Positions 5,019 to 19,245 of a DNA stretch of 19,804 nucleotides are shown one piece after another. Source of the DNA: Verrucomicrobiota bacterium (lineage in GTDB: Bacteria > Verrucomicrobiota > Verrucomicrobiia > Verrucomicrobiales > DEV007); assembly GCA_020629815.1 (NCBI GenBank), contig JAHDCN010000007.1, positions 1 to 19,804 on the forward strand, given 5' to 3'. The translations under genes were made by a program, and so were the position numbers. Each line of letters starts with the position of its first letter. The stretch's first letter is position 1. A model generated the notes under the pieces. The model did not search any database. It was not told where the DNA came from and saw nothing but the letters and a program-made list of their open reading frames with translations.

Positions 5019-5068
5019 TGGTTGCGGGAGCCGGATTTGAACCAGCGACCTTCAGGTTATGAGCCTGA
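5019..5068 (-). pseudogene. 3' half of tRNA-fMet(CAU): attachment-site scar of an integrated element
   Basis: The minus strand encodes positions 27-76 of a tRNA: a 5-bp anticodon stem with loop CTCATAA (anticodon CAT at 5061-5059), variable loop AGGTC, T arm GCTGG-TTCAAAT-CCGGC, acceptor strand TCCCGCA and ACCA. A72 with the TTCAAAT T-loop and AAGGTCG resembles initiator tRNA. The anticodon stem has only two of the three G-C pairs typical of initiators, so an elongator is not fully excluded. Upstream on the minus strand (beyond 5068) there is no D arm or 5' acceptor strand; the sequence becomes AT-rich. The fragment cannot be a working tRNA. With an integrase gene immediately beyond it, this is the classic displaced 3' end left by integration into a tRNA gene. 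Left of it is host DNA; right of it should be the element. Confidence 0.88.
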
Positions 5069-5129
5069 AAATACATATTATTTTAACTGGATTTAAGATT
5101 TGTCGTGCATTGAATCGTGCAATAGATTC

Positions 5130-5157
5130 TTGCGGTGCGGCAGACTTTGTTTATAGT
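5130..5157 (+). promoter_or_regulatory. Candidate promoter of the integrase gene
   Basis: TTGCGG (5130-5135) and TATAGT (5152-5157) are separated by 16 bp. The expected transcription start falls at about the ATG at 5164, suggesting a leaderless or near-leaderless message. This supports 5164 as the start codon rather than 5059. It is a consensus match by eye only. Confidence 0.45.
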
Positions 5158-5163
5158 TTCAGA

Positions 5164-6441
5164 ATGGCGGCAGCTAGAAAGCGGACTCGAACGACCAAAA
5201 ATAATGCGAGAGGCTTAGAAGCAGGAGAGTTTCACCTGACTCTGAGGCTGATTGAAGAACGTAAAGGCGAACGGCGATGGAAGACCTGGATGGTTCAAGG
5301 ATGGAAAGAAAACGGGAAGTGGAAGCGAAAAAAATTCAAAAAGAAATCAGATGCTGAGGCTTTTCGTTCAAGATTGCAATCGGAACTGATCAAAGATCAG
5401 AACGCCACCCACCGAGTATCGACCCGCTTGACTGACGACCAAATTGACGCGGCCGAGGCTGCCGTAAAAAGATTGGGGGAGCGATACACTCTGACCGATG
5501 CAGTCGATTTTTTCTTACAGCATTTTTGCGAGCCCGAGTTCAAAATATCAGTCAACCATGCCAAGAAAAAATTCTTAGTAGGAAAGGAACGTGAAGGAGT
5601 AAGAGATAGGTCACTCATCCAGCTTCAGTCCACGATCTCAAGATTCGAGTCATTTGTTGAGGACTCAGAGATTCATTTGATCACCGCAATGGATGTTGAA
5701 AAATTTCTCCGTTCTCTCCGCGCGCGAAACGGCGTTGATAAGGCTAGTCGAAAAACCTGGAACAACTATCGCGCTGATCTTTCTAGTTTTTTTAACTGGT
5801 GTGCGGATAGCCAGAGAAGGTGGATAGCAAACAATCCTGCGGCGCAAGTGGTGAAATTCAAAAAGATTGATCGCGACCTGCCTGAAATTCTTTCTCCCAA
5901 GGACGCCTTGCAGCTTATGGAATATGTCAGTAATGAGTTCGATGGGAAAATGATTCGCTATTTTGCGCTCGCGCTTTTTGCCGGAATTCGCACAGGCCCC
6001 GCAGGTGAGTTACACAAATTGGCTACCCATCCCGAACTGGAGAAGCTCATTGATTTGAAGAGAGGAATTATTCATATCACACCGGAGATCAGCAAAACCT
6101 CCCAGAAGCGGCAAATAGTCATTCGCCCGAATCTTCAATCTTGGCTTACGTCTTCTCCTGATGATATCCTTCCAACGAATCATGACCGTATGGTCAAGGT
6201 CATTCGAAGAGAAAAGGGGCTGGGACACGATGTTTTGAGGCATTCGTTTTTCTCTTACCACGTCGGTGCTTTTCGCTCCGTTGGTGATGCTGCAATCGAG
6301 GGCGGAAATACGGAATCTGTGGTCAAAAAACATTACTTGAATTTATCAACTCGAACAGAGGCCGAACAATTCTGGAATATAGGAGCACCTGAATTTGTTC
6401 GTACCGAAAAAAGGAACTCAAGACTTGAAGTTGTAGTATGA
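5164..6441 (+). CDS. Tyrosine recombinase (phage-type integrase)
   Basis: Site-specific recombinase expected to insert and excise the element at the adjacent tRNA gene. The 425-residue form has a basic N-terminus (MAAARKRTRTTKNN), a core-binding region (about residues 125-235, with the HLITAMDVEKFLRSLRAR helix) and a catalytic domain. Catalytic positions visible: box I Arg R276 in AGIRTGP, Lys in the SKTSQKRQIVI beta-hairpin, box II Arg R359 in HDVLRHSFFSYHV, and nucleophile Tyr Y391 in KKHYLNL. The usual box II His is Asp (D356), and the GH pair before the Tyr is GN; I recall both variants in an integrase subfamily of PVC bacteria, so the protein need not be inactive. The frame is open back to an ATG at 5059, but that ATG is the complement of the tRNA anticodon, so I start at 5164. 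It overlaps the next gene by 4 bp. Confidence 0.9.
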   Translation: MAAARKRTRTTKNNARGLEAGEFHLTLRLIEERKGERRWKTWMVQGWKENGKWKRKKFKKKSDAEAFRSRLQSELIKDQNATHRVSTRLTDDQIDAAEAAVKRLGERYTLTDAVDFFLQHFCEPEFKISVNHAKKKFLVGKEREGVRDRSLIQLQSTISRFESFVEDSEIHLITAMDVEKFLRSLRARNGVDKASRKTWNNYRADLSSFFNWCADSQRRWIANNPAAQVVKFKKIDRDLPEILSPKDALQLMEYVSNEFDGKMIRYFALALFAGIRTGPAGELHKLATHPELEKLIDLKRGIIHITPEISKTSQKRQIVIRPNLQSWLTSSPDDILPTNHDRMVKVIRREKGLGHDVLRHSFFSYHVGAFRSVGDAAIEGGNTESVVKKHYLNLSTRTEAEQFWNIGAPEFVRTEKRNSRLEVVV

Positions 6442-7478
6442 GCAACGAGGCCGAAAGCGAAGAGGCTGATGCTGTTTTTCTTTTAAGAATTAACCTGCAC
6501 GATCTGGGAGAAAGGATTGGGAAATGGACAGTTAAATGGCTTGCTCGGAAGCCGGGGCTCCGGGGCGAAAAACTACGCGAGTGGCTACAAAATGTTCAGA
6601 TAGGAGATCAGCTTTCTCCCAACGATTTGAGTAAGCCTGAAATTCGTATTCCAGGCAGGCTACAAAATGTTCGTTTTCGTTTACCTGGAGATGGCAAAAT
6701 CAAAATCAGAGAATCAAAATCCAGCGACGAAGTTTTGGATCGGCTGCAAGATGCACTTGGGAATATTGCTTTCGAAGATAACGATCAGGAGTTTATCATT
6801 GCAGATTTGGTTGATGATTTGGTTACCGAATTGTTTGTAAGGGCAGCCCATGGAAATCTATTGGCTCAATCCCTGATGTTGCGAGTTGCGGAAAAGACAT
6901 CGGACTCCTTTGTCAGTCTTGCGAATGCGGGCGCACCTCAGATAAAGTATGAAGTTCGGAAGAAGCTGCATATTCCTGGTATCGTTTCCGTCAATCCAGA
7001 AGTTACAAATCTGATGCATGATTTGTGTAACACGCTGGAGCAAGGGGAGGATTACGGCCTCAACTTACGAGGTCGAGCTAAGTGCAAAAGAGGAAGTAAA
7101 AGCAAATTTTTCACTCCTAAGCATCGCCTTTGCGACATGCTCTGGAGGCATGTCGAACCTCTTAGAAAATCAGCTAAAAGGGAGCAAAAATATGGACGCT
7201 GGGAGACTTACAAAGACCAGCTACCATCCCTGACCCGCAGGATTTGCGACCTGCCTGAGCTGACAGGAGATTCGGTCCCTGAATGGCTCGAAGTTTTCTT
7301 ATTGATTATCGAAGAGACGACGAATGAAAACACTCTAGGTCACCCAGCCTTTGTGGAGGGATCTGATTTTTTTGAGCTGGTGCAGCCTGACGGACGCGGC
7401 GAATTCCCACTGAGAAAGCGACTGACAGAAGCACTGCGAGATCGAGTTGCACAGGTCAGTAAATCACCGCCAGATTAG
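6438..7478 (+). CDS. Protein of unknown function, 346 aa, translationally coupled to the integrase
   Basis: I do not recognise the family. The start ATG overlaps the integrase stop (ATGA, 6438-6441), so the two are translated together. The N-terminus is acidic (residues 1-13), and the middle contains KWLARKPGLRGEKLREWLQ and a helix-rich segment with an acidic FIIADLVDDLVTELFVRAA stretch. A Lys/Arg-rich patch (about 212-225, RGRAKCKRGSKSKFF) could bind nucleic acid. No signal peptide, transmembrane segment or catalytic motif is evident. Position in the integration module suggests an accessory factor or a cargo protein; that is context only. The stop is followed two bases later by a 28-bp palindrome. 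Confidence 0.75.
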   Translation: MSNEAESEEADAVFLLRINLHDLGERIGKWTVKWLARKPGLRGEKLREWLQNVQIGDQLSPNDLSKPEIRIPGRLQNVRFRLPGDGKIKIRESKSSDEVLDRLQDALGNIAFEDNDQEFIIADLVDDLVTELFVRAAHGNLLAQSLMLRVAEKTSDSFVSLANAGAPQIKYEVRKKLHIPGIVSVNPEVTNLMHDLCNTLEQGEDYGLNLRGRAKCKRGSKSKFFTPKHRLCDMLWRHVEPLRKSAKREQKYGRWETYKDQLPSLTRRICDLPELTGDSVPEWLEVFLLIIEETTNENTLGHPAFVEGSDFFELVQPDGRGEFPLRKRLTEALRDRVAQVSKSPPD

Positions 7479-7480
7479 CA

Positions 7481-7508
7481 CCCTCTATCTGGCGCGCCAG
7501 ATAGAGGG
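7481..7508. repeat. 28-bp perfect palindrome between the unknown gene and the excisionase-like gene
   Basis: CCCTCTATCTGGCG (7481-7494) is followed immediately by its exact reverse complement (7495-7508), with no loop. CGCCAGAT also occurs just upstream (7468-7475) in the same orientation as the right arm. There is no T run on either side, and the absence of a spacer argues against a typical terminator. It lies 57 bp before the preferred start of the HTH protein, so it could be that protein's operator, a recombination directionality site or a replication signal. Confidence 0.85.
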
Positions 7509-7565
7509 CAATTGGCTGGGAGATTAGGTAGAGACAAATCGATTTTTCTGGCAACTTTTACAGGC

Positions 7566-7799
7566 ATGGACACGCAAACCATGCCAAACGAATTGCGGGA
7601 GGATGCCCTCGTGGGTGAGTCTGAGTGCAGAAGAATTATTTTTCCCGAAGAGAGTTCGCGTCCTTCGAGACGTACGTTTCTGGAGTGGAAATCCAGAGGA
7701 CTGATCCCATACCGCAAGATCGGCCGGTTGGTCTACTACGATCCAGCTGAGGTAAGGAGAGCGATTGATAGGCAGTTCAAGATTGAACCGCGCGCCTAG
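7566..7799 (+). CDS. Small helix-turn-helix protein, excisionase/MerR-like
   Basis: A 77-residue protein ending in a winged-helix module of the HTH_17/excisionase type: PSRRTFLEWKSRGLIPYRKIGRLVYYDPAEVRRAID, in which GLIPYRKIGR-LVYYD is the family signature. Such proteins bind DNA and help excision or regulate the element. The frame opens earlier at a TTG (7512) directly beside the palindrome. I prefer the ATG at 7566, though ATG 7581 is equally possible; the start is uncertain. The primase gene follows 18 bp later on the same strand, so both are probably in one operon. Confidence 0.72.
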   Translation: MDTQTMPNELREDALVGESECRRIIFPEESSRPSRRTFLEWKSRGLIPYRKIGRLVYYDPAEVRRAIDRQFKIEPRA

Positions 7800-7817
7800 T
7801 TTGTAAGGGAGCAGGCT

Positions 7818-8840
7818 ATGGATCTTATCTCACGCGCTCGTCTCTATTTGGAGAAGTTAGATAAAGCTGTCTCAGGGAGTGGCGGTCACGACGCAACGTT
7901 CAGGGCGGCTTGTGTATTGGTTTCTGGCTTCGCTCTGGATCGAGAGTCTGCACTTTCTCTGTTGCGGGAGTGGAACCTCTCACATTGCGAGCCAGCGTGG
8001 TCTGAAAGCGAACTTGCTCATAAGATTGATTCAGCCATAGCTTCACAGTCGCAAAAATCAGACGGCTATCTTGTCAGTGATACCAAAGGCTATAGGCCTC
8101 TCTGCTCATATGCCGCTTCCTCTGCAATGCAAGACATTCAGCCAGCATGGCCGAATCCCGATCATGAGGAAATTCTTTCTCTCCTAAACACCAGATACCA
8201 CTCTCTTCAGGAACTGGAAAATTATTCGCCCCTTTCTCCGAGGAAACTCACTAATTCCTACTCGATTGTTGAACGATTGTTTGCTTCTGAGAAGGAACGA
8301 GATCCGTGGCTCTGTGTGGCAAGAGATATATGGAACCCAACGACTCGCCGCCTTTCTGACCTCCGTAATGACGTGGCTCGGGCTCGGTTTATTGTTCCGA
8401 ACCGGATGACCGGGCCTGTTGGCGAAACGAAGCATGGTAAACCTTCGGTCAGAAGTCTAAAGAACACCGGGCGACGTCGCTTTTTAGTTGTGGAATGCGA
8501 CTTTACCCCTGAGAAGAACGGGCCTCTTTTCGATTGGTTGAATCTCCATTCATCGAGCGTTTCCGATTTGTGCGCCACTGTCCTTATCGCGCTGGCCGAG
8601 TATGCGCCAATGGTCATGGCAGTCCATTCGGGCGGAAAAAGTTTGCATGGCTGGTTCTCGGTCCTCGACCGCGACGAGTCTGATCTCCGAAAATTTATGC
8701 GCTTCGCCTGCATGATCGGCGCTGACAAAGCTACTCTCGTGCCCTGCCAAATGGTCAGGTTGCCTTGGGGTATTCGCGACAATGGAAATAGGCAAAGCGT
8801 TCACTACTTCGACGATGACTCAACCCTGCTCAGAGATTGA
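7818..8840 (+). CDS. Archaeo-eukaryotic-type primase (AEP) of a mobile element
   Basis: Probable DNA primase for element replication, 340 aa. Residues about 8-75 form a helical module common in element primases (GSGGHDATFRAACVLVSGF with REWNLSHCEPAWSESELAHKI). The catalytic-looking part follows: motif I as VVECDF (E226, D228, in place of DxD), motif II as SGGKSLHGWF (S275, H277), and motif III-like RLPWGIRDNGNRQSVHYFD. SGG-K-S-LH with RLP-x-G-x-R-x-NG-x-x-Q is a pattern I associate with AEP primases of phages and integrative elements. GGAG lies about 8 bases before the ATG (the string ends aagggagcaggct). The helicase-like gene starts 26 bp downstream. Polymerase activity is inferred, not shown. 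Confidence 0.75.
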   Translation: MDLISRARLYLEKLDKAVSGSGGHDATFRAACVLVSGFALDRESALSLLREWNLSHCEPAWSESELAHKIDSAIASQSQKSDGYLVSDTKGYRPLCSYAASSAMQDIQPAWPNPDHEEILSLLNTRYHSLQELENYSPLSPRKLTNSYSIVERLFASEKERDPWLCVARDIWNPTTRRLSDLRNDVARARFIVPNRMTGPVGETKHGKPSVRSLKNTGRRRFLVVECDFTPEKNGPLFDWLNLHSSSVSDLCATVLIALAEYAPMVMAVHSGGKSLHGWFSVLDRDESDLRKFMRFACMIGADKATLVPCQMVRLPWGIRDNGNRQSVHYFDDDSTLLRD

Positions 8841-8866
8841 CCTATTCCAATTATATCTAATGAATT

Positions 8867-10492
8867 ATGAAAAAAAAAGAAAACAAAGAAAAGTCAAAAA
8901 CAAGCAGTCCTATTTCAAAGGATTGGAAGGATTTACCTGATAAAGAAAGCGGTAAATCGAAGAGGAACAAAGAGCTTTCTAAACCAACAAAGCCTGAGCT
9001 CGCCATCGGGAAGGTGGTATCTTTGATGGCTGAAGTATGTGGTCGTTTTTTGAGAGCATCTGATTTGTATTTGAAACGAGATTCACTTGTCACTGTAGAT
9101 CCAAAGACCGCAGAGATTCGTTCGATGGACGCTGTTCGTTTTGTTTCCTGGGTGGAAAAGTATGTGGATTTCGGTCGTTACGTGAAAAGTAAGGAAGGAA
9201 AGCAGTTTTTCGCTGCGAATTCTATTTCAGTTGAATTGGCTGGCAAACTGTTGTCATCAGATCAGTTTCGGGAACAGGTCCGAGTTTTGAATTCATGCCA
9301 TGATGTTGTCTTGCCAGCATGGGCCAATGAGGCGCAAACCAAAGTCCGGCTGTTGCCGCCTGGCTACGATGACGAAACGGGAGTTTTCACTGCTCCAATG
9401 TTTGAATATGACACAAACCTTGACCCGAACGCTGCCTTTCACTACCTCTGTGAAATCTATCGCGAATTCCCTTTTGCGGAAGGGAGAAATCTTCGAGACT
9501 GCCGCTCATTCTCTGTTCACTTGGCGGCCCACTTCGCTGCATACTGCCGCCTTATGCTTTTGGATAATCCCCGGTTGGCATTTGTCTATCTCGCGAATCA
9601 GCAAGGGGGAGGAAAAAGTCTACTGGGAAAAATGGCCTTGGCACCTGTGTTTGGTAGTCCGGCAACTTCCAGTCTTTCGAAACGTGAGGAGGAAGTTGAG
9701 AAATCCATTCGAGCCTTACTGAAGAGTGGGGAGCCGTTTGCCTTTTTTGATAACTATAAGGGGTTTCTGGGATCAGCAGAACTGGAGGGGCTGCTTACCT
9801 CTAAAGACCGAATTTCCCGTGTCCTGGGAACCCCTGAAAATTCCCGAGATAGGAATAACCTGATCGTCGTCGTTACTGGTAACGGTGTTACACTTTCCCC
9901 GGATATGAAACGCCGTAGTTTGATTTGCGATCTGTTTTGTGCGGAAAATGCCGTTGAGAGAAAGATTGAGAATCCAATCGAGGATTCCTGGCCCACTCGA
10001 CCGGAGATCCGCGCCCAGTTTCTGGCGGTTCTCTGGTCTCTGCTGAACGAATGGCAGGAGGCGGGTGCACCGAGGGCAAAGGAAAAATTGATCCCTTCCT
10101 TTGAGCATTTCTCAGGGATAATCGGTGGCATTATCGAGGGTGCTCGCTTTGCCTCCCCACTTACCACTCCAGCTACCCAGGTGGATGAAGTCACGGCGGC
10201 ATGGGAATTGCTGTTTCAGAAACTCGCGGAGCCATTTCCTCTAGGCGAGCATCAACTCACCGTTGACGAAGTAATCGAGAAAGCCAATGAGATCGGTGTT
10301 CTGGAAATTCTTACTGGAGGGGCAAAGGATGAACGGAAAAGTATCGGCCTGCGAATCAAGAGGTGGAAGGGAAGGGTCTTTCGAGATGCTCTGGGGCGAA
10401 AAGTCACTTTCAGTAAAAGACGGCATAACATTGGAGTCAGATACACACTGACAATCGAAGGAGCCGAACCCGCTCAGGCGAAAGCGGCGTAG
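8867..10492 (+). CDS. P-loop ATPase, primase-associated replicative helicase-like protein
   Basis: A 541-residue ATPase expected to unwind DNA together with the preceding primase. The first 45 residues are a lysine-rich, low-complexity tail starting MKKKENKEKSKTSS. The core has Walker A NQQGGGKSLL (K250, S251), Walker B GEPFAFFDNYKG (D295, N296), and a sensor-1-like VVVTGNGVTLSPDMKRRSL with following arginines as possible arginine fingers. The C-terminus (about 440-540) looks like a winged-helix DNA-binding module. Separate primase and helicase genes replace the fused primase-helicase of many phages. The gene stops at TAG (10490-10492), and the same frame then stays open for 95 more codons. 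Confidence 0.82.
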   Translation: MKKKENKEKSKTSSPISKDWKDLPDKESGKSKRNKELSKPTKPELAIGKVVSLMAEVCGRFLRASDLYLKRDSLVTVDPKTAEIRSMDAVRFVSWVEKYVDFGRYVKSKEGKQFFAANSISVELAGKLLSSDQFREQVRVLNSCHDVVLPAWANEAQTKVRLLPPGYDDETGVFTAPMFEYDTNLDPNAAFHYLCEIYREFPFAEGRNLRDCRSFSVHLAAHFAAYCRLMLLDNPRLAFVYLANQQGGGKSLLGKMALAPVFGSPATSSLSKREEEVEKSIRALLKSGEPFAFFDNYKGFLGSAELEGLLTSKDRISRVLGTPENSRDRNNLIVVVTGNGVTLSPDMKRRSLICDLFCAENAVERKIENPIEDSWPTRPEIRAQFLAVLWSLLNEWQEAGAPRAKEKLIPSFEHFSGIIGGIIEGARFASPLTTPATQVDEVTAAWELLFQKLAEPFPLGEHQLTVDEVIEKANEIGVLEILTGGAKDERKSIGLRIKRWKGRVFRDALGRKVTFSKRRHNIGVRYTLTIEGAEPAQAKAA

Positions 10493-10780
10493 ACCTCTCG
10501 GCGGCTCTCCTGCCTTACTCAATGCGATTCCAGCTTTCCAACTTCGCATTTATTCACCTCCACCCAGATCAACATTCCAAACGATTTAGAAGGCTTCCGT
10601 AAAAAGTTTTTACGCGAGCGGTTCCCTGGTCCGGCAACTGATTTACACGGTGTCGCGACATCCCATCAAACGACACGTCAGGTCGTCGAAACTGTCGCAT
10701 CCTTTGACCTATTGACGGATAGTGCACTTTGCGACAACAAAAGGAATCTCTTTAGCTCTTTCTACCCTTCAATCAGGTGA
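10493..10780 (+). other. 95-codon open extension in frame with the helicase after its TAG stop
   Basis: After TAG 10490-10492 the same frame runs 95 codons to TGA (10778-10780). No ATG, GTG or TTG occurs in its first half, so it is not an ordinary separate gene. The translated segment includes PNDLEGFRKKFLRERFPG and HQTTRQVVETVASFDLL, which looks protein-like by eye. A stop-free run this long has roughly a 1% chance at random with equal base use. It could be a C-terminal part lost to a nonsense mutation, readthrough, or chance. Confidence 0.35.
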
Positions 10781-10836
10781 GTGCCCTTTTTCTGGCACCG
10801 AGCGGGGCTGATTATTTCAAAAATCTTCCCTCGAAT

Positions 10837-10863
10837 CTGCCCCTTTGCCATAAAGGGGGGCAG
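10837..10863. terminator. GC-rich hairpin downstream of the helicase operon, possible terminator
   Basis: CTGCCCCTTT (10837-10846) pairs with AAAGGGGGGCAG (10852-10863), leaving one bulged G and a 5-nt loop. It is the strongest simple hairpin after the rightward replication genes. The bases after it (gaagccttctattttc) are T-rich only after a gap, so termination is possible but not canonical. Confidence 0.35.
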
Positions 10864-11304
10864 GAAGCCTTCTATTTTCAATCCGCTCATCCGGGTAGGT
10901 CGCCCCCTTGCGGAAAAAGCGAGAGATCTCAATTTATTTTTCTGCCGCTGCCGCTCTAATTCTTGCCCTTTGCCTCGTACAATCCCCAGATAACGGCAAA
11001 TACCAGAGGCAACGATCTAGCGAAATCGAATTACATACCGACAGCCAACTCAACACTTTACACATACTCTACACGTCTGCAGGTCGCATAAACACTGGGT
11101 AGGTGCAGTATTGTAGAGTATTATTTAGAATATTGGTTAGCAGGAGAAAAGGATTTGAGAGAAGGAATAGACGATAGAGCTGTTGGAGATTCCTGAGTAA
11201 CTCGACACCTTTACACCGATTGAGGTCTCGCGCGAGGATCGCATGTGCAAGCTTTACACGAAGTTTTAACGAAACATTTCACTAGCGTGACAGACGTCTT
11301 TTTT

Positions 11305-11865
11305 CTACTCCTTCAGTCTCAATAGTTGGGATTCTAGCTGCTTTCGTGATCTATAGAGTAGCGATTCGACCGATTTGGTGCCCGTTCTCAATACCTGAGC
11401 AATCTCACGATGTGACATACCCTCATAGTAAAATAACAAAGTCGCAGTCCGCATTTTTGGTGGTAGTTCTTGAATCGCAACCGAGATTTCTTCGGCTCGC
11501 TCTATCTGCGACAGTTGAGCATCGGGAACGTTTGTAACCGTTTCCGTAATCGCTTCAGAATTTAATTCCGGATGTCGCTTTTTCCAACGTATCTGATTAC
11601 GCAGGAGATTGTTCGCGATTGCAAACATCCAGGTAGAAAACTTCTTTTTTGGGCGAAATTTCTTTCGGTGACGGTAAATGCGGACAAACACCTGCTGTGC
11701 GAGATCTTCGGCGTCTTCGCGACTGCCCAGAGACCGATAAAAGAAGGCGATCAGGGGAGATCGCCAGCGGTTCATCAGCTCATTGAGCGCCAGATCATCA
11801 CCCTGCGCCAAGCGAACCATACAAGCCGAATCTGCTGCGGCTTGGTTGTCCAAATCTTCTGGCAT
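11305..11865 (-). CDS. ECF RNA polymerase sigma factor, CnrH-like by context
   Basis: A 186-residue sigma-70 family regulator that should direct RNA polymerase to metal-stress promoters. Region 2 is visible at about 28-97 (WRSPLIAFFYRSLGSREDAEDLAQQVFVRIYR and FSTWMFAIANNLLRNQIR). Region 4 spans about 128-182 (ELPPKMRTATLLFYYEGMSHREIAQVLRTGTKSVESLLYRSRKQL). There is no region 3, as expected for ECF factors. It is the last gene of a leftward trio, starting 4 bp after the sensor stop, so it is translated with it. The order anti-sigma, sensor, sigma is that of cnrYXH of Cupriavidus metallidurans. Target promoters are unknown; a shared motif before the oxidase and MauE genes is a candidate. Confidence 0.92.
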   Translation of the reverse strand: MPEDLDNQAAADSACMVRLAQGDDLALNELMNRWRSPLIAFFYRSLGSREDAEDLAQQVFVRIYRHRKKFRPKKKFSTWMFAIANNLLRNQIRWKKRHPELNSEAITETVTNVPDAQLSQIERAEEISVAIQELPPKMRTATLLFYYEGMSHREIAQVLRTGTKSVESLLYRSRKQLESQLLRLKE

Positions 11866-11869
11866 AGAG

Positions 11870-12370
11870 TTACTCAGCCGTACTTTGCGCCCGTTCGGAA
11901 AATTGCCCGTCGAGCGTGATGTGTGGTGTTCGCCCCTGTAGGATCAACCGCTCGCTGACAATCCTACGGTAGCGCTCCCCCTGCTCGGGTGACATCAGTC
12001 GGCTCATGTCAAAAATATGCTCCAATGTTGCCTCCCGACATTCGCGATGCAGTGCTTCGTTTTCCGCAATTGCCTTACGGAGTTCCTCATCCAAAGCACC
12101 TTTTGCTTCGATTTGCGCCTGCAGCTTTTCCTGTGAAGAAATCAGGCGATGACACATGCCCTGACACTTTCCGTCAAATTCCAGATGCAGTCGGCGAACC
12201 TGAGCAAACGCCTCGTCACTCAGTTGAAATTCGTGCCGCAACCAATGTAAGACGGGTTGTTTGGATTGAGCGACCTGGCGAGTCTGTTGGGTAACCAGTC
12301 GATATACCACGGCATAGCCAGTCCAACCAATCAGCGATAGCAATAGAAGAAAACAAATCAGTTTTTTCAT
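11870..12370 (-). CDS. Membrane-anchored periplasmic metal sensor, CnrX-like
   Basis: A 166-residue protein with one N-terminal membrane segment (about 4-24) and a helical periplasmic domain. In CnrX the sensing ligands are H42, H46, E63, H119 and M123. Here the same pattern is visible: HWLRH gives H42 and H46, E64 follows 18 residues later, and HIFDM gives H118 and M122. This agreement in spacing is strong support for the family. Three cysteines are extra: C69 and C73 in CQGMC, and C111. They could bind copper(I) or form disulfides and may shift metal preference; that is inference. The ATG at 12370 overlaps the stop of the preceding gene by one base (TGATG); an upstream TTG codon is ignored. 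It is expected to hold the anti-sigma factor until metal binds. Confidence 0.85.
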   Translation of the reverse strand: MKKLICFLLLLSLIGWTGYAVVYRLVTQQTRQVAQSKQPVLHWLRHEFQLSDEAFAQVRRLHLEFDGKCQGMCHRLISSQEKLQAQIEAKGALDEELRKAIAENEALHRECREATLEHIFDMSRLMSPEQGERYRRIVSERLILQGRTPHITLDGQFSERAQSTAE

Positions 12371-12687
12371 CAATGATGGGAATGAAGGTTACCTGATTGC
12401 GCAGAAGCCATCGCCCCGGGATCAATCGAAAATGCGTATTGAGCGGTCAATGCATTCCAGTGACGATCATTGGTTCGACTGCCTTGCCACGCAGCGACAG
12501 TGAGAATGGCGGCCATGGCGACAGCGGCTGTCGCAGCCCAAAGCAGCGGACGTTGGAAAAAGTGATCCACTGGTGAAGTTGATGATTCGAGCCGACTCCA
12601 GACAGCGCGACGGAAATCTGCGTCCGCATGATCTGGCTCGGCTGGAACTTGCCATTTCTCCAAGGTATCTTTCAAAGGGTCATTCAT
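12370..12687 (-). CDS. Single-pass membrane anti-sigma factor, CnrY-like by position
   Basis: The start chosen is the ATG at 12687-12685 (MNDPLKDTLEKW), giving 105 residues. An earlier in-frame ATG would add 28 unlikely residues derived from the repeat region. The layout is a short cytoplasmic N-terminus (about 1-48) that could wrap the sigma factor, one transmembrane segment (about 49-68, LLWAATAAVAMAAILTVAAW), and a periplasmic tail ending in HSHH, which may contact metal or the sensor. CnrY-type anti-sigmas diverge in sequence, so the call rests mainly on size, topology and gene order. It is coupled to the sensor gene by a one-base overlap. No zinc-type HxxxCxxC anti-sigma motif is seen. 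Confidence 0.7.
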   Translation of the reverse strand: MNDPLKDTLEKWQVPAEPDHADADFRRAVWSRLESSTSPVDHFFQRPLLWAATAAVAMAAILTVAAWQGSRTNDRHWNALTAQYAFSIDPGAMASAQSGNLHSHH

Positions 12688-12913: not shown

Positions 12914-13186
12914 TTACTTCTTCTTGTTCAATTTCGCCAAATAAGTCGACGGATTTTTGTTAAACTTCTTCAAGCAAGGCTTGCAGCACAGCTTCACTTC
13001 CTGGCCTTTGTAGACAAAGCGGTATGTCTTTCCCATCGATCCCAACTTGTTGTCGGTGACGATACACGTTTTCAGCGTGTATTTCTTCGGCGGCGCTTCT
13101 TTGGCATTCACCAGCAGCGTGGCTCCGAGCGCGACAGCGCATGCAGCAAGTAGGGTTTTCAGGGTATTTCTTCGGTTGTTTTTCAT
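12914..13186 (-). CDS. Exported TRASH/YHS-like metal-binding protein, 90 aa
   Basis: A small protein with an N-terminal export signal (about 1-28, LKTLLAACAVALGATLLVNA). The mature part is TRASH-like: a first cysteine in TCIVTD (C41), then YKGQEVKLCCKPCLKKFNKNP (C67, C68, C71) and YLAKL. TRASH and YHS domains bind heavy metals through such cysteines, so it is a likely periplasmic copper or heavy-metal binder, though a role as metallochaperone or buffer is inferred. I chose the ATG at 13186-13184; the longer frame from 13243 overlaps the oxidase gene and lacks a credible signal. It follows the oxidase stop by 40 bp, so they are probably co-transcribed. Confidence 0.8.
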   Translation of the reverse strand: MKNNRRNTLKTLLAACAVALGATLLVNAKEAPPKKYTLKTCIVTDNKLGSMGKTYRFVYKGQEVKLCCKPCLKKFNKNPSTYLAKLNKKK

Positions 13187-13226
13187 GGTGTTGTTTTTTC
13201 TATTTTTGGTTGTGTTGGTTTGGTTG

Positions 13227-15314
13227 TTAGAAGCGAAAGGCAACGCCTCCGCCCCATCCGTGATCAGAGTGAAATCCCCCGATCAACGAAAATTGTTTCG
13301 ACAGCAAAAACTCGGCACCGGCTGCCCATTCCCACTCGGTGTTGGTGTCGTATTCGATATCGCCGTAGAGTGAAATTCGGTCGGTCAACGGGACCTCACG
13401 TTCCAAGCCAAAGCGAAAATCGCCCTCGCTATCCACTTGCGCCGAGCTACGCACCAGCAGAGGCAGGCGATAGGTGAATCCGGCAAAAGCGCGATCCTCG
13501 GCCGCATGATCGTTAGTAAATCGATAGCCCAGCTGAGTCGACCAATCGGGATTGAAGTAGTGACTCCAAAACAGATCCATCTCGTATTCGTCGTGCTCGT
13601 GAAAGCCGTAGTCCCAGGCGAACACGAAGTCTTCACGGCCCTTCATCCACATTGCCCGACCCATGGTCATGTGGTTCTGGATCGAGCCATTGAGAAAGAA
13701 AAACGAAGGATTGATCAGCTTCGGATCGAGATTCGGCACGTGATCTCCTCCCTGCTCGGCGTAGCTGATCACCCGCGCCATACCGGCATCCATGTGATAC
13801 AGCAGGTGACAGTGAAAGAACCAGTCCTGCTCCTCATTGGCGAGAAACTCAATGGTGCGCGTCGCCATCGGTGGCACATCGACGGTGTGCTTAAGCGGTG
13901 CAAAATCGCCCTGGCCGTTCAGCAATCGAAAAAAGTGCCCGTGCAAGTGCAGCGGGTGATGCATCATCGTGTCATTGACCAATTCCATCTGCAGCACCTC
14001 GCCACGGCGCACGCGGATCGTCGAGTCCTCCGCCAGAGTCTTGCCATTGAATGACCAAAGATAACGTTGCATGTCTCCCGTGAGTCGCAGCTCAATCTTT
14101 CTGCGCGGATACTTTGCAGGGATCGCAGTCGACTCCCTGGCTCGCAGCTTGTGATATGGCGGTAACGGACGGGCATTGGACTCTGCCATTCCTTCATTTT
14201 CACCACTAGTCTCCCCATGATTCATAGGCATGCTTTGTTCCATGGACATGTCTTCTTCCATCGCATGATTCGACAGCGGATCATTCAGGGCTGCCATCAT
14301 CATCTCATCCATCGAGTAGATATTCGGGCGTGGCAGATTTCCAGCGCGGTGCTTGCGCCCTTTTCCGACGAAAACCGAAGCCGACCCCGAGTTGTCCTGA
14401 GCCGTAGCGCGAATCTCCCACGAACCACGGCGCGGCACGGTGAACAGCACATCATAGGTCTCGGCCATACCGATCAGCAAGCGGTCTACCATCACCGGCT
14501 CCACGTCTGGGCCGTCGGCGGCGATCACTGTCAGAGGGCCTTCCGCCGAGTGCAGATAAAAATAACTCGAAGCCCCCGCGTTGATTACCCGGAAACGAAT
14601 GCGTTCACCGGGCTTGGCATCGATCTCGGAGCTGGATTTTCCATTGATCCAAAAAGCATCGTAGTAGACATCCGACACATCCATCGGTGGCATTTTCTGC
14701 CAGGCATTGCCCACGTAGTCTTTCAGTGACCCTGCCTTTATCGCTCCCAACACCGAAGGCTTATTGCCTTTTTGAAACGCATACCATTCGCTGCCCCGCA
14801 TCAGGGTGCGCATCACTTCTTTCGGTCGCTCGTTGGTCCAATCAGAGAGTTGCAACACGATATCCCGATCCACCGCGACCGAGGGACCTTCCCGTGGCTC
14901 GACCACAATCGAACCGTAGACCCCACGCTGCTCCTGCAATCCGGTGTGCGAATGATACCAATAGGTGCCCGCGTGAGTCAGAGGGAATCGGAACGTGCGG
15001 CTCTGTCCGGCAAGAATCGGCGGAGTCGTCAGGTAGGGGACGCCATCCTCCGAATTCGGCAGTAGCAGACCGTGCCAGTGAATGGACGTTTCTTCCTTCG
15101 GCAGATGATTGTGAACGTGAATCACCGCCTCATCGCCGACGCGAAAGCGAAGCACAGGGCCGGGAATGCCACCGTTCAGAGTGAGTGCCTTAACCTTTTT
15201 TCCAGCCGGGGCGATCTTCTCTTCAGCAACATCCAGCCGATATTCGACCGTATTTGAGGCGAGCACGAGCGGGCCCGAGAAAAGCAGGCAAAAGGTTAGG
15301 AATAGGTGTCTCAT
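13227..15314 (-). CDS. CopA-type multicopper oxidase fused to a C-terminal putative outer-membrane beta-barrel
   Basis: The 695-residue protein starts with a signal peptide (MRHLFLTFCLLFSGPLVLAS). Residues about 21-515 are a multicopper oxidase with all four copper-ligand motifs: HWHG (H79, H81), HSH (H121, H123), HPLHLHGH, and HCHLLYHMDAGM. A Met-rich stretch in the middle (MDEMMMAALNDP, MEEDMSMEQSMPMNH) is typical of CopA copper-resistance oxidases. Residues about 522-695 are different: alternating strands rich in aromatic residues (FVFAWDYGFHEHDEYEMDL, WSTQLGYRFTND, ISLYGDIEYDTNT, EWEWAAGAEFLL) and a final Phe (GGGVAFRF), the signature of outer-membrane barrels and reminiscent of CopB. It would tether the oxidase to the inner face of the outer membrane. 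I start at the ATG 15314 because the frame extension to 15362 runs through the promoter-like block. Confidence 0.88.
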   Translation of the reverse strand: MRHLFLTFCLLFSGPLVLASNTVEYRLDVAEEKIAPAGKKVKALTLNGGIPGPVLRFRVGDEAVIHVHNHLPKEETSIHWHGLLLPNSEDGVPYLTTPPILAGQSRTFRFPLTHAGTYWYHSHTGLQEQRGVYGSIVVEPREGPSVAVDRDIVLQLSDWTNERPKEVMRTLMRGSEWYAFQKGNKPSVLGAIKAGSLKDYVGNAWQKMPPMDVSDVYYDAFWINGKSSSEIDAKPGERIRFRVINAGASSYFYLHSAEGPLTVIAADGPDVEPVMVDRLLIGMAETYDVLFTVPRRGSWEIRATAQDNSGSASVFVGKGRKHRAGNLPRPNIYSMDEMMMAALNDPLSNHAMEEDMSMEQSMPMNHGETSGENEGMAESNARPLPPYHKLRARESTAIPAKYPRRKIELRLTGDMQRYLWSFNGKTLAEDSTIRVRRGEVLQMELVNDTMMHHPLHLHGHFFRLLNGQGDFAPLKHTVDVPPMATRTIEFLANEEQDWFFHCHLLYHMDAGMARVISYAEQGGDHVPNLDPKLINPSFFFLNGSIQNHMTMGRAMWMKGREDFVFAWDYGFHEHDEYEMDLFWSHYFNPDWSTQLGYRFTNDHAAEDRAFAGFTYRLPLLVRSSAQVDSEGDFRFGLEREVPLTDRISLYGDIEYDTNTEWEWAAGAEFLLSKQFSLIGGFHSDHGWGGGVAFRF

Positions 15315-15378: not shown

Positions 15379-15858
15379 TCAGGAGGCGGAAAAAAGCATC
15401 AGTCCGGCCATCAGAACCATCCCCATATCTTCGATCAGAGCGACACTCGACAGTGGAACTTTCAGAGCCGTACCGAGACACGCGCAATTGACGTCCAGAC
15501 CTTTCATCAACGCGAAAATGACACCAACGGCTCCAAACCCAAACAGTGCGATGGTTGCCAGATAGACAAACGGAGGATTCCAGCACGCAAGAAAAGCCAG
15601 TCCAAGCGCCAATTCCAGAAACGGGTATATGAATCCGTAGAGGCGGACACGCCCTGCGAGCATATCGTATTTGGCAAACCCACGAGCGAATCCACTCAGG
15701 TCAAATAGCTTAAACATTGCAAAGACGATCAGAAAGAATCCCATCCAGTCATGCATCCAGCTCATGCTTTCCCACGATGTGAGACCATCGAATTGTTTCG
15801 CGGTCGCAGCAATGGCTGTCAGCAGGGTGACGATGATCACAGGCAAATACTTTTTCAT
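15379..15858 (-). CDS. MauE/DoxX-type membrane protein with a CxC motif
   Basis: A 159-residue inner-membrane protein with about four to five hydrophobic segments (about 4-20, 38-56, 72-92, 98-118, 137-157). LDVNCACLGTALKVPLSSVALIED carries C125 and C127, the redox- or metal-binding cysteine pair typical of MauE/DoxX-like proteins. MauE-type proteins support disulfide or thiol redox in the envelope; a metal-transfer role is possible here given the neighbours. I chose the ATG at 15858 (MKKYLPVIIVTLL); the frame open to 15912 would add residues from the promoter-like region. The oxidase ATG lies 64 bp downstream on the same strand, so both probably belong to one metal regulon. Exact family assignment is moderate. 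Confidence 0.7.
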   Translation of the reverse strand: MKKYLPVIIVTLLTAIAATAKQFDGLTSWESMSWMHDWMGFFLIVFAMFKLFDLSGFARGFAKYDMLAGRVRLYGFIYPFLELALGLAFLACWNPPFVYLATIALFGFGAVGVIFALMKGLDVNCACLGTALKVPLSSVALIEDMGMVLMAGLMLFSAS

Positions 15859-15918
15859 TAGTTCACGCGAGATTGATAGTGATTGAATGTAGGTGAAAAA
15901 AAAGTCAGTCATTCATGC

Positions 15919-15950
15919 GGGGATACACCGCAGAATTCGAAATCCCTCAA
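15919..15950 (-). promoter_or_regulatory. Candidate ECF-type promoter of the MauE-like gene
   Basis: The minus strand has TTGAGGGATTTCG (15950-15938), 7 bp, then CGGTGTA. It agrees with the oxidase block at 11 of 13 positions in the first part and 6 of 7 in the second. It sits in the 105-bp gap between the TauE-like stop and the MauE-like ATG. Confidence 0.5.
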
Positions 15951-15963
15951 AAATATTTTTTCA

Positions 15964-16755
15964 CTATCCCTGGGAAAACACCATCAACACCGCCATCGCC
16001 CATGCGCTAACGGCAAAGCCCCGGTTTACTTTCTGGTCAGGAAGCCTTCTCACCAAAAGCGTACCCAACCCAACGCCCAAACAACTGCCTGCCAAAAACC
16101 ACCAACCTTTTTCCGATGCGATTCCCCCGGCGCTCGCGAAATGAAAAGTCGAACCCGAGATCGCCACAGCAGCTATGATCCAAAGAGAGTTCGCGACAGA
16201 TGCTCTTGCGGAAAGGCCAGCTACAAAAACAAGGGCGGGGACGATCAGAAACCCGCCACCGACTCCGAAAACACCAGATAGGATGCCAACTACGGCTCCT
16301 GCCATCAGCAAAACCATCGAGCATCGGCAACTCCATTTTATTTTCGTCGAAGACGAATCGGGACGACAAACTGTTGCTGGAAGCAAGTTCGCAGAAACTT
16401 TTCTTCGCCACATCCGAATTCCGACGATCACCATCAGCACGGCAAAGCATAGAATGATCAATTGCTCCGGAAGTTGCTTTCGCAGGATCACACCCACCGG
16501 TGCCGTGACCATTCCGGTTACGCCCAAAGTCAGGATAACAGGCAGGCTGACGTTCTTCTGCGGCAAAGCAAGAATACCACCCAGTAAGGCGGCGGCTCCG
16601 ACTGCGATTAGTGAAACACTTGCGGCATCCCCAATGCTAAAGCCAAGTCCATAGATCAGCAGAGGCACGGCGAGTATCGCCCCTCCGCCTCCCGTCAGGC
16701 CGAGTGCTATCCCGACGATGGCACCCAGACCGATAGCCAGCCATTCCACCGTCAT
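15964..16755 (-). CDS. TauE/SafE family sulfite/sulfur anion exporter
   Basis: A 263-residue polytopic inner-membrane protein. The N-terminal half begins MTVEWLAIGLGAIVGIALGLTGGGGAILAVPLLIYGLG, and the second half repeats the pattern (AGAVVGILSGVFGVGGGFLIVPALVF); the paired GLTGGGG/GVFGVGGGF motifs and about eight hydrophobic segments are the TauE/SafE hallmark. Such proteins export sulfite or related organosulfur anions. The ATG overlaps the stop of the upstream CstB-like gene by one base (TAATG), so the two are co-translated; the exporter would remove sulfite made by the persulfide dioxygenase. Substrate is inferred from that pairing. Confidence 0.9.
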   Translation of the reverse strand: MTVEWLAIGLGAIVGIALGLTGGGGAILAVPLLIYGLGFSIGDAASVSLIAVGAAALLGGILALPQKNVSLPVILTLGVTGMVTAPVGVILRKQLPEQLIILCFAVLMVIVGIRMWRRKVSANLLPATVCRPDSSSTKIKWSCRCSMVLLMAGAVVGILSGVFGVGGGFLIVPALVFVAGLSARASVANSLWIIAAVAISGSTFHFASAGGIASEKGWWFLAGSCLGVGLGTLLVRRLPDQKVNRGFAVSAWAMAVLMVFSQG

Positions 16756-18206
16756 TAAACAGAGGCATTTGCGTTTTTCCCGGCGTGATAATCTGCAAAT
16801 GCTCCATCCGCATAGGTCACACGAAATCCTTTCCGTTCAAGATACGGAACTGCCAAGGATGCACGCAATCCACTACCACAATGAACCGCCAAATGTTTCG
16901 CTTCAATATCACCGAGTTGGCGTTTCACCTGCGTATGCCCAATACGAATCGCTCCCTCGACGTGACTCGTATTGAACTCAGCCGCGCTTCGCACATCCAG
17001 CACTTGCGTATGAGGAAAACTTTGTAATTCATCGTGCAAATCCTGGGTCGTGATAGTCGGTGTTGATATAAACATTTCCCGAAACTCACGATCCGATTCC
17101 CAATCTTCTAATAAAGTATAGTAGTGAACTTTGTCATAACCGATCCGAATCAATTGGCGGGTCAGCTCAAATCGGTCTTCGGCATCCTCCACCATGAGAA
17201 CGATGGGCTGATCCGGCTCCAGGTAAGAGCCTGCTACCACGCTGAAATTTGCTCCGGATGGAGCGAACAGAGAACCAGGCAAGTGAGCATCCATGAACTG
17301 ACGCCGGTTCGAGCGCGAGTTGTCGAGAACGACCATGTTTGGATTCTGTTCCAATTCCTTCAGCAACTTCTTGGGTGAAATTTTCTCAGGCTCCGGCAAT
17401 TTTGCCAACACGGGCGCACCGAGTTTGTTCCATTGCTTCATTCGTGCGAAATAGGGTGGAGGTTCGGGCTGCCCATCGAGAATGCCAGCGACGAAGGCGT
17501 CTTCTCCTTCGCGAGTCGCGGTGACAATCGGGCGGTTGAACCGCTTTTCGTAACCGACTGTCGAGCTTGGAATCGCCCCGAGATCCTTGCCACACGCGCT
17601 GCCCGCACCATGACCGGGGAGAATCTGAACAAAATCGGGCAAAGCCTGAAACTTCTCCAGCGAACGAAACAACTGGCGTGCCGAAGGCTCACGAGCGCCT
17701 TTTTGCCCCGCAGCCGATTCCAGCAAATCCGGGCGTCCCACATCGCCGACAAAAATGAAATCGCCAGAGATCAGAGCCATCGGTTCATTCGCTCCGCCGC
17801 CGGTGTCCTCGATCAGAAAACTCAAGTGCTCCGGCGTATGGCCGGGGGTATGCAACGCTGTGATTTTGATTTTCCCCACTCCGAACGAATCTCCGTCGTG
17901 AAGAAATTTCACCTGATTGGGATAGTCGGAAGCCCATTCGTATTTCCAATCCTTCGTTCCTTCATCAGAAAGAAAAACCTTCCCCTCGGGGTTCCCGGCA
18001 AGAAACTCGAGTGAGCCACTTAGGAAGTCAGCGTGGATATGCGTTTCGGCCATCCCCGTAATTTGGAAACCATGTTTTTCCGCCAAACGGAGATATTGAT
18101 CGATATCCCGCTCGGGTTCGATCACCACTGCTTCACCCGTTCGCTGACAGGCGATCAAGTAGGCATATTGAGCAAGGTTTTCATCGTTGATTTGTTTGAG
18201 AAACAT
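16755..18206 (-). CDS. CstB-like persulfide dioxygenase with pseudo-rhodanese and rhodanese domains
   Basis: The 483-residue enzyme should oxidise low-molecular-weight persulfides to sulfite and thiosulfate in the cytoplasm. Residues 1-240 are a metallo-beta-lactamase-fold persulfide dioxygenase: THIHADFLSG (H56, H58, D60), HTPGHTPEH (H119, H123), SGDFIFVGDVGRPDL (D149, D155), and LPGHGAGSACG. A first rhodanese-like domain (about 270-370) lacks a catalytic cysteine (IVLMVEDAEDRFELT), so it is a pseudo-rhodanese. A second (about 385-475) has it: AVHCGSGLRAS, C443. This three-part order matches S. aureus CstB. The ATG at 18206 is preceded by a tandem-repeat region. It is co-translated with the TauE-like exporter and lies downstream of a rhodanese gene and a divergent ArsR gene. 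Confidence 0.9.
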   Translation of the reverse strand: MFLKQINDENLAQYAYLIACQRTGEAVVIEPERDIDQYLRLAEKHGFQITGMAETHIHADFLSGSLEFLAGNPEGKVFLSDEGTKDWKYEWASDYPNQVKFLHDGDSFGVGKIKITALHTPGHTPEHLSFLIEDTGGGANEPMALISGDFIFVGDVGRPDLLESAAGQKGAREPSARQLFRSLEKFQALPDFVQILPGHGAGSACGKDLGAIPSSTVGYEKRFNRPIVTATREGEDAFVAGILDGQPEPPPYFARMKQWNKLGAPVLAKLPEPEKISPKKLLKELEQNPNMVVLDNSRSNRRQFMDAHLPGSLFAPSGANFSVVAGSYLEPDQPIVLMVEDAEDRFELTRQLIRIGYDKVHYYTLLEDWESDREFREMFISTPTITTQDLHDELQSFPHTQVLDVRSAAEFNTSHVEGAIRIGHTQVKRQLGDIEAKHLAVHCGSGLRASLAVPYLERKGFRVTYADGAFADYHAGKNANASV

Positions 18207-18234
18207 AACGGTAGATGGTTTGAAAATGTTGACT

Positions 18235-18310
18235 TAATAGGGTTAACCCAACGAGTTGATAGGGTTGGTTCGTGAGTCAATAGGGGTGGTTCGTAGACCA
18301 TACCCTGTTG
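18235..18310. repeat. AACCCTGTTG repeat element, copy 3, in tandem form
   Basis: Three tandem units, TAATAGGGTT (18235-18244), TGATAGGGTT (18257-18266) and CAATAGGGGT (18278-18287), are spaced 22 and 21 bp apart. Two are followed by GGTTCGT. An inverted ACCCTGTTG (18302-18310) closes the element. It fills the gap between the rhodanese stop and the CstB-like start. It is not a CRISPR: the spacers are about 11 bp and themselves repeated. Confidence 0.75.
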
Positions 18311-18317
18311 CTTCGTC

Positions 18318-18830
18318 TTAAGCAGAGCGTTGGTTCCAGGGCATTTTTGCGATTAACATTCCCATGGCACAGGAGTCGGTGATTCCGGCAAACATCAGAC
18401 CTGCGCCGACAAAGGCGGAGAGGCCAAATCCTGCGGGATGAGCGAAGAAACCGATGAGCACACCGATGACGATCAAGGCACCGGCAGCGATGCGAACCTG
18501 ACGTTCGAGCGACATGACTTTTTTGCCGCGATTCATTTCCAAACCCTCGGTTTCACAGGCAGTGATGCCTCCTTCGACGAGGTGCAGGTTTTCGATTCCC
18601 CCTTTTTCCAGATCACGAATCGCTTGAGTAGCGCGGTTTCCGCTACGGCACAGCACGTAGACCGGGCCTGTCTCGCTGAGTTGACGAATCGCACTGTGAT
18701 CGAGCCGATCCAGCGGGTGCAGTTGGGATCCGGGAATGTGCATTTCGCCATATTCGGCTGGTGTCCGGACATCGATCAGTAATCCGTTTTCGAGGGCTGA
18801 CTTCAGATTGTTCGCTTGAATGGTGTTCAT
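18318..18830 (-). CDS. YgaP-like membrane-anchored rhodanese (sulfurtransferase)
   Basis: A 170-residue protein with an N-terminal rhodanese domain (about 1-100) and a two-helix membrane tail. The rhodanese shows LLIDVRTPAEYGEMHIPGS and the active-site loop VLCRSGNRA with catalytic C61. The C-terminus carries the DUF2892-type region with hydrophobic segments (about 111-130 and 133-150) and the conserved ending GITDSCAMGMLIAKMPWN. This is the YgaP architecture: sulfane sulfur transfer at the inner membrane. It is the first gene of the leftward sulfur block and faces the ArsR gene across 79 bp, which contains two operator-like palindromes. It is therefore probably derepressed together with the CstB-like and TauE-like genes. 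Confidence 0.9.
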   Translation of the reverse strand: MNTIQANNLKSALENGLLIDVRTPAEYGEMHIPGSQLHPLDRLDHSAIRQLSETGPVYVLCRSGNRATQAIRDLEKGGIENLHLVEGGITACETEGLEMNRGKKVMSLERQVRIAAGALIVIGVLIGFFAHPAGFGLSAFVGAGLMFAGITDSCAMGMLIAKMPWNQRSA

Positions 18831-18843
18831 TGTATTCTTATAT

Positions 18844-18855
18844 AACTAAATGGTT
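18844..18855. promoter_or_regulatory. ArsR operator-like palindrome, left
   Basis: AACTAAATGGTT is an imperfect 12-bp palindrome, matching the right site AACTGAATAGTT at 10 of 12 positions. On the minus strand it lies immediately upstream of TATAAG (18842-18837), a likely -10 of the YgaP-like gene. Confidence 0.6.
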
Positions 18856-18870
18856 GTTTAGCGAAATTAT

Positions 18871-18898
18871 TTGCATTTCGCTCATTGTCAACTATAAA
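18871..18898 (+). promoter_or_regulatory. Candidate promoter of the arsR-type gene
   Basis: TTGCAT (18871-18876) and TATAAA (18893-18898) have a 16-bp spacer. Transcription would begin a few bases before the ATG at 18910, so the message is nearly leaderless, and the right operator covers the start point, consistent with autorepression. Confidence 0.5.
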
Positions 18899-18909
18899 AC
18901 TGAATAGTT
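18898..18909. promoter_or_regulatory. ArsR operator-like palindrome, right
   Basis: AACTGAATAGTT lies directly against the ArsR ATG (18910) and overlaps the end of its -10 element. With the left site it gives a consensus AACTRAATRGTT, in a mirrored arrangement typical of a repressor controlling two divergent promoters. Confidence 0.6.
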
Positions 18910-19245
18910 ATGAAGGAAAAAAACCAGCTTGATCGGGACGCTCTCGAATTGGTCGCTGCAATGTTCAAGATTTTCTCCGACGCATCGCGTCTGGAGATTT
19001 TGCAGGCCTTGAAAGATGGGCCGAGCAACGTCAGTGAATTAGTTGATCAACTGGGAATGACACAAGCCAATGTCTCCAAACATCTTCGCATCATGTATGA
19101 GGCGAAAATCGTGTCACGAAAGAAAGAAGGCACTGCAGTCTTTTACGCAATCTCTGATGATTTTGTTTTTCCGCTTTGCGAAATGGTCTGTCAAAAGCTC
19201 AACGATGATCACCAGAGTCAGGCTGAGTTGGAGTTTGCGATTTGA
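18910..19245 (+). CDS. ArsR/SmtB-family repressor, likely persulfide- or metal-responsive
   Basis: A 111-residue winged-helix regulator. The fold signature is visible: FSDASRLEILQALKDGPSNVSELVDQLGMTQANVSKHLRIMYEAKIVSRKKEGTAVFYAISD, with the recognition helix around TQANVSKHLR (51-60). The ELCVC-type metal site of ArsR/SmtB is absent. Two cysteines only, C90 and C94 (CEMVC), lie in the last helix; BigR/SqrR use a cysteine pair to sense persulfide, though at other positions (C41 and C107). Given its divergent rhodanese, CstB-like and TauE-like genes, a sulfur-sensing role through C90-C94 is the best guess, but metal binding by the same pair is possible. No Shine-Dalgarno is seen. Confidence 0.88.
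   Translation: MKEKNQLDRDALELVAAMFKIFSDASRLEILQALKDGPSNVSELVDQLGMTQANVSKHLRIMYEAKIVSRKKEGTAVFYAISDDFVFPLCEMVCQKLNDDHQSQAELEFAI

Follow-up and report, generated by a model that had tools for sequence, protein, structure and literature searches.

The window analysed here, a contig stretch of 19,804 nucleotides, contains a minus-strand frame in which a multicopper oxidase of the CopA/PcoA type continues into a C-terminal tail, and thus poses the question of what this tail is and what the joined protein would do. The initial annotation had proposed an outer-membrane-type β-barrel serving the oxidase as anchor or pore. The results presented below identify the protein almost certainly as a PcoA-PcoB (CopA-CopB) fusion. 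That such a fusion acts, as a whole, as an outer-membrane copper detoxification protein is probable, and the arguments for and against an efflux mechanism are evenly poised.

Architecture of the fused gene

The frame comprises 695 codons and a stop, extending on the minus strand from an ATG at 15314 to a stop at 13227 with 0 internal stops. The gene and its parts are as follows:

13227..15314, minus strand: fused CopA/PcoA-PcoB gene, 695 aa, single open frame
15258..15314, minus strand: probable N-terminal signal, residues 1-19, without twin-arginine motif, assigned from the sequence and its hydrophobic core (cleavage site estimated by eye)
13761..15230, minus strand: multicopper oxidase part, residues 29-518
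14175..14279, minus strand: low-confidence insert, residues 346-380, within a Met/His-rich stretch
13707..13760, minus strand: short linker of ~18 residues (519-536) joining oxidase and barrel, placed by alignment and model
13230..13706, minus strand: PcoB/CopB-like 12-strand barrel, residues 537-695, with terminal Phe

Three cupredoxin domains were detected in residues 29-518, all above the Pfam cut-offs (Cu-oxidase_3, PF07732, 8e-44; Cu-oxidase, PF00394, 2e-18; Cu-oxidase_2, PF07731, 1e-32). The full set of copper ligands is present as well, with the twelve positions that we take, as known for the family, to be the ligands (H79, H81, H121, H123, H453, H456, H458, H501, C502, H503, H507 and M512) being invariant across 26 fused proteins (alignment A1). 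The oxidase is complete in this respect, as first described. By far the best NCBIfam model for this part is copper_res_A (TIGR01480) with 410 bits, below the curated cut-off of 478.95 bits, so that the window oxidase is called a divergent relative of the CopA/PcoA subfamily. The insert at residues 346-380 exhibits pLDDT values below 50 in the AlphaFold model and is probably disordered; the surrounding 59 residues include 13 Met/His.

The C-terminal barrel

Phe, Tyr and Trp account for 20% of residues 537-695, compared with 8.6% of residues 21-520. The full-length AlphaFold model (pLDDT 82.1, pTM 0.82) shows the tail as 12 β-strands. A Foldseek search with this model listed multicopper oxidases alone among the best 50 of 1415 matches and hence gave no information on the tail, for which reason the tail was folded alone. 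Residues 525-695, modelled with 19 relatives, again yielded 12 strands (pLDDT 91.1, pTM 0.80). These models agree with the original description of an aromatic, strand-rich tail ending in Phe, and with the proposal that it is an outer-membrane-type β-barrel attached to a CopA-type oxidase. A soluble sandwich or a disordered tail is ruled out by both models.

When the tail model was compared with the PDB, the first-ranked structure was PcoB (7pge; E 4.7e-6, TM 0.70/0.61, 16% identity), followed by porins with E-values of 1.6e-4 and weaker. The models and the Foldseek result together describe a 12-strand barrel with the PcoB fold, and the strand count and the PcoB match suggest that this barrel is closed. 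When 20 tails were aligned as a profile with four stand-alone PcoB sequences, all of them PF05275 proteins, hhalign gave 95.4% with an E-value, valid for a single pair, of 1.7e-8. The profile search against CopB that had been suggested at the outset, run with hhalign, supports this assignment and, run with Pfam, fell just short of the threshold: PF05275 (CopB) scored 26.4 bits with the tail alone and 22.7 bits with the whole protein, the gathering cut-off being 27 bits. At E-values up to 1 this family matched 4 of the 20 tails, and at the same level it also matched in 4 of 14 control genomes, including those of the Gram-positives Bacillus subtilis and Corynebacterium glutamicum (above the cut-off in 1), so that a PF05275 match alone proves little. 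With PF05275 under its cut-off, the kinship of the tail with PcoB is drawn from hhalign and Foldseek.

The link was weaker in other sequence searches. A profile of seven PcoB sequences matched 3 of 71 fused proteins, all Akkermansia-like frames (E 5e-7 to 1e-5), and one unfused oxidase (L049, E 8e-4); it did not match the window protein. A phmmer search of the PDB with the tail returned 0 matches and no PcoB, and a PDB search with the profile of 20 tails returned three matches with E-values of at least 0.19, a designed barrel being the first and PcoB not among them. The tail is a divergent PcoB/CopB, a protein ordinarily encoded by the next gene. The chain accordingly unites the usual CopA-CopB pair, both parts in that order in one uninterrupted frame, rather than an oxidase and an unrelated anchor.

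Unfused relatives and occurrence of the fusion

A PcoB frame lies directly 3' of the oxidase gene in 10 of 11 unfused loci that are uncut inside the gene (L039, L041, L044, L045, L049, L050, L051, L082, L083 and L084), although 4 of these frames were part of the search profile and match by construction. The eleventh locus (L053), with a more distant oxidase, has no PcoB within 334 bases after its frame. The oxidase and PcoB frames, with starts as set by the ORF finder, overlap by 4 to 11 bases in the four unfused loci listed in detail, and pcoB is annotated beside pcoA on three plasmids. Fusion of genes that adjoin in this manner would need little.

The number of genomes with the same fusion, a count called for by the initial annotation, was obtained from two collections that may share species. 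One scan of genome contigs found the fused architecture in 44 of 53 loci. Not counted as fused were L030, which is cut by a contig end inside the tail, L050, in which the oxidase frame is broken, and L039, L041, L044, L045, L049, L051 and L053. In the phylum sample, 27 of 288 genomes carry the fused arrangement, the window's own included, 25 of them intact and two with an in-frame stop; this count was made by hand and leaves aside an isolated match of 43 residues in G259. Among the 29 loci L056-L084, those not counted as fused were L068, L080, L082, L083 and L084. The first two are fused-type genes that an in-frame stop interrupts, in L068 within the tail and in L080 close to the junction; they may be split genes or pseudogenes.

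Altogether, 69 further intact fused frames were collected, of which 67 are distinct sequences and 62 are distinct over the last 150 residues. The C-terminal residue is Phe in 23 and Tyr in 46, with no exception. Named carriers belong to Verrucomicrobiota and Bacteroidota and include one deltaproteobacterial MAG, and the nearest named relative of the window protein (L001) is 64% identical, which suggests that the window itself is of verrucomicrobial origin. Isolates and a complete plasmid (L018) are represented, and a Spirosoma plasmid (L086) carries a long frame whose match extends to query residue 667. Of the 3987 plasmid records that gave matches, 28 cover 80% or more of the query in one place. 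In Hymenobacter psychrophilus (L019), two fused oxidase-barrel genes that differ from each other lie in tandem, at 5830-8217 and 8462-11179.

A tree of the oxidase part was calculated with FastTree from 55 sequences (43 fused and 12 unfused), which were left from 83 after removal of those at least 93% alike; L030, L050, L053, L068 and L080 were omitted, and the root was placed by choice on E. coli PcoA. All 43 fused sequences form one clade (support 0.987, branch 0.90) in this tree, which is drawn from a sampling seeded by the window protein, and so favouring its relatives, and is without the Legionella fusions discussed below. Two fused proteins from small genomes of the window's order, putative Akkermansia (L067 and L069), fall among the Bacteroidota forms, a position that suggests transfer.

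Export signal

Barrel proteins are exported unfolded, and the fused protein could therefore not easily use the Tat pathway. PcoA itself is described as having a Tat signal and probably crossing the membrane folded (review, PMC7558416). The twin-arginine motif RRx[FLIMV] is absent from the window protein and was found in 3 of 71 fused oxidases compared with 8 of 12 unfused ones, by a crude regular expression applied to the 75 residues preceding the oxidase part; the frames searched mostly run from stop to stop with unsettled starts, and one of the 12 unfused loci (L045) is without upstream sequence owing to a contig end. Of the three fused matches, that in L060 alone precedes the hydrophobic core, that in L019b being ahead of the likely start and that in L061 coming after this core. 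A further count, likewise crude, of RR near the core gave 3 of 71 fused and 6 of 12 unfused proteins, with L063 having RR before the core. The rarity of the Tat motif among the fused forms points to a change of export signal that is possibly new.

Genomic context

Downstream of the fused gene, on the same strand, lie the following genes:

12914..13243, minus strand: small exported YHS/TRASH-like protein, encoded directly after the fused gene (PF04945 match with E 1.5e-4, under the cut-off); the listed start overlaps the fused gene and a later start is likely
11870..12373, minus strand: heavy-metal sensor-like protein, Metal_resist (PF13801 above cut-off), further downstream
11305..11865, minus strand: sigma-70 family factor, ECF-like, a probable regulator (PF04542 and PF08281 above cut-off, Sigma70_ECF just below)

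Two small genes separate the fused gene from the sensor and the sigma factor. The same Metal_resist and sigma factor pair follows the fused gene in L001, where the Metal_resist match is below cut-off, and, as annotated, stands beside pcoAB on a Sphingobium plasmid. Contig bases 19000-26930 (L085), which extend beyond the window end and contain one stretch that reads N, lie upstream of the fused gene and encode, on its strand, an RND pump together with a CusB-like adaptor and an efflux protein of the outer membrane. These neighbours fit a role in heavy-metal stress.

Several other genes of the window were recorded. Beside the copper gene, the minus strand at 15379-19245 encodes a membrane protein of the MauE type and a permease of the TauE type, together with a metallo-beta-lactamase/rhodanese protein and a rhodanese that has a YgaP-like membrane segment, perhaps a persulfide-handling set. 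An ArsR-type regulator at 18910-19245 on the plus strand faces away. The plus strand at 5059-10492 holds a phage-type integrase (PF02899 above cut-off) followed by four frames that have no Pfam match at E 0.001, the last of which looks by eye like an ATPase; this region is a probable integrated element, and a tRNA search of the window found none. A single plus-strand frame at 2393-4351 combines GH99/WbsX-like matches in its N-terminal half with an esterase (BD-FAE) in its C-terminal part.

Proposed function and alternative explanations

The likeliest function, as judged from sequence, would be oxidation of Cu(I) in the periplasm, at the opening of a copper channel in the outer membrane. The chain would be exported by Sec; its terminal Phe suggests that the Bam machinery would then insert the C-terminal barrel into the outer membrane. 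According to PMC9210255, the PcoB structure has 12 strands in its barrel and both termini in the periplasm, and the protein conducts copper in vitro. Because both PcoB termini face the periplasm, the oxidase would lie at the periplasmic face of the barrel to which it is joined. Cu(I) may be gathered by the Met/His-rich loop, and the oxidase, to judge by its family, would convert this Cu(I) to Cu(II); the Cu(II), being made at the barrel mouth, might then exit through the barrel. The direction of this last step is disputed for PcoB itself, which the structural report argues to import copper rather than to mediate efflux (PMC9210255), whereas the work on the Caulobacter proteins speaks of efflux (PMC12509749). 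The sequence does not decide between the two. In Caulobacter, the disordered N-terminal region of PcoB is reported to stabilize PcoA and may dock it (PMC12509749), and in the fused protein the covalent linker may stand in for this contact.

A more comprehensive reading can be offered only tentatively. A single old fusion would have combined one-step Cu(I) oxidation at the periplasmic barrel mouth with direct exit of Cu(II), a switch from Tat to Sec export and replacement of the PcoB docking tail by the linker, after which the fused form would have spread among Bacteroidota, Verrucomicrobiota and others. Such a switch would mean that the four coppers must be taken up in the periplasm.

Three other explanations were weighed against copper oxidation at a conducting barrel. 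The one that survives best, unlikely as it appears, is that the barrel is an anchor only, which keeps the oxidase at the outer membrane without conducting anything. The barrel part, with 159 residues, is smaller than the solved PcoB chain with 198, and that structure is described as partly obstructed towards the periplasm; yet PcoB is the best structural match of the tail, and copper flux through it in vitro is reported despite the obstruction (PMC9210255). A quite improbable alternative is that the fusion oxidizes another metal at the outer membrane, for example Fe(II), by analogy to PcoAB, which has been proposed, without experiment, as a porin-oxidase system in iron oxidizers (PMC5566968); the heavy-metal sensing and efflux genes nearby and the best score of the oxidase with a copper-resistance model argue against it. 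That two adjacent genes only appear joined, through an assembly error or a frameshift, as might be suspected from the fragmented assembly (599 contigs) and from the adjoining genes of the unfused relatives, is refuted by the conserved architecture, as seen in the 69 further fused frames from sources including isolates and a complete plasmid, besides the Spirosoma plasmid, and in the one well-supported clade, and can be dismissed with near certainty. Copper oxidation at the mouth of a PcoB-like barrel thus remains the preferred interpretation.

Relation to described systems

The statement in the initial annotation that no example had been described does not hold, as two cases are in print. Fused PcoA-PcoB proteins of five Legionella species are mentioned in one sentence of a survey of gammaproteobacteria (Hernandez-Montes et al. 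2012, PMC3548706); by that description they unite the same two partners in one chain as the window protein, a likeness of described architecture that does not imply common origin. The Bizionia argentinensis multicopper oxidase G2EDV6 (2024, PMC11213822) is reported to have its oxidase domains at residues 200-610 and, like the window protein, to continue from a PcoA-like oxidase into a porin-like C-terminal part (611-809) of some PcoB similarity. The remark on this tail is a single sentence that does not take up other species. A search of the open-licence literature, outside which most subscription papers lie, found no study devoted to the PcoA-PcoB fusion. The CopA discussed in PMC11082258 is a P-type ATPase and is irrelevant here. 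This kind of fusion is therefore already mentioned in print and little studied; its breadth over several phyla, its single clade and the change of export signal are possibly new.

The separate PcoA and PcoB (CopA and CopB) share the oxidase family and the 12-strand barrel fold with the fusion, but are encoded by two genes, the unfused oxidases mostly having the twin-arginine motif, and PcoB has an N-terminal region of its own. The fused porin-cytochrome Cyc2 is likewise described as a single chain in which a redox domain precedes a predicted outer-membrane barrel (PMC5566968), with a cytochrome where the fusion has an oxidase; the resemblance noted here is one of architecture.

How PcoA and PcoB cooperate, and in which direction PcoB moves copper, are disputed questions. 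The natural fusion fixes the ratio of the two partners at one to one, their distance and, if the barrel is built like PcoB, the periplasmic side of the oxidase, and a single purified protein could therefore serve to test the PcoA-PcoB question. With its many sequences, the fused family also lends itself to a co-evolution test of the PcoA-PcoB contact, and it may represent an example from nature of an enzyme that has changed its export route.
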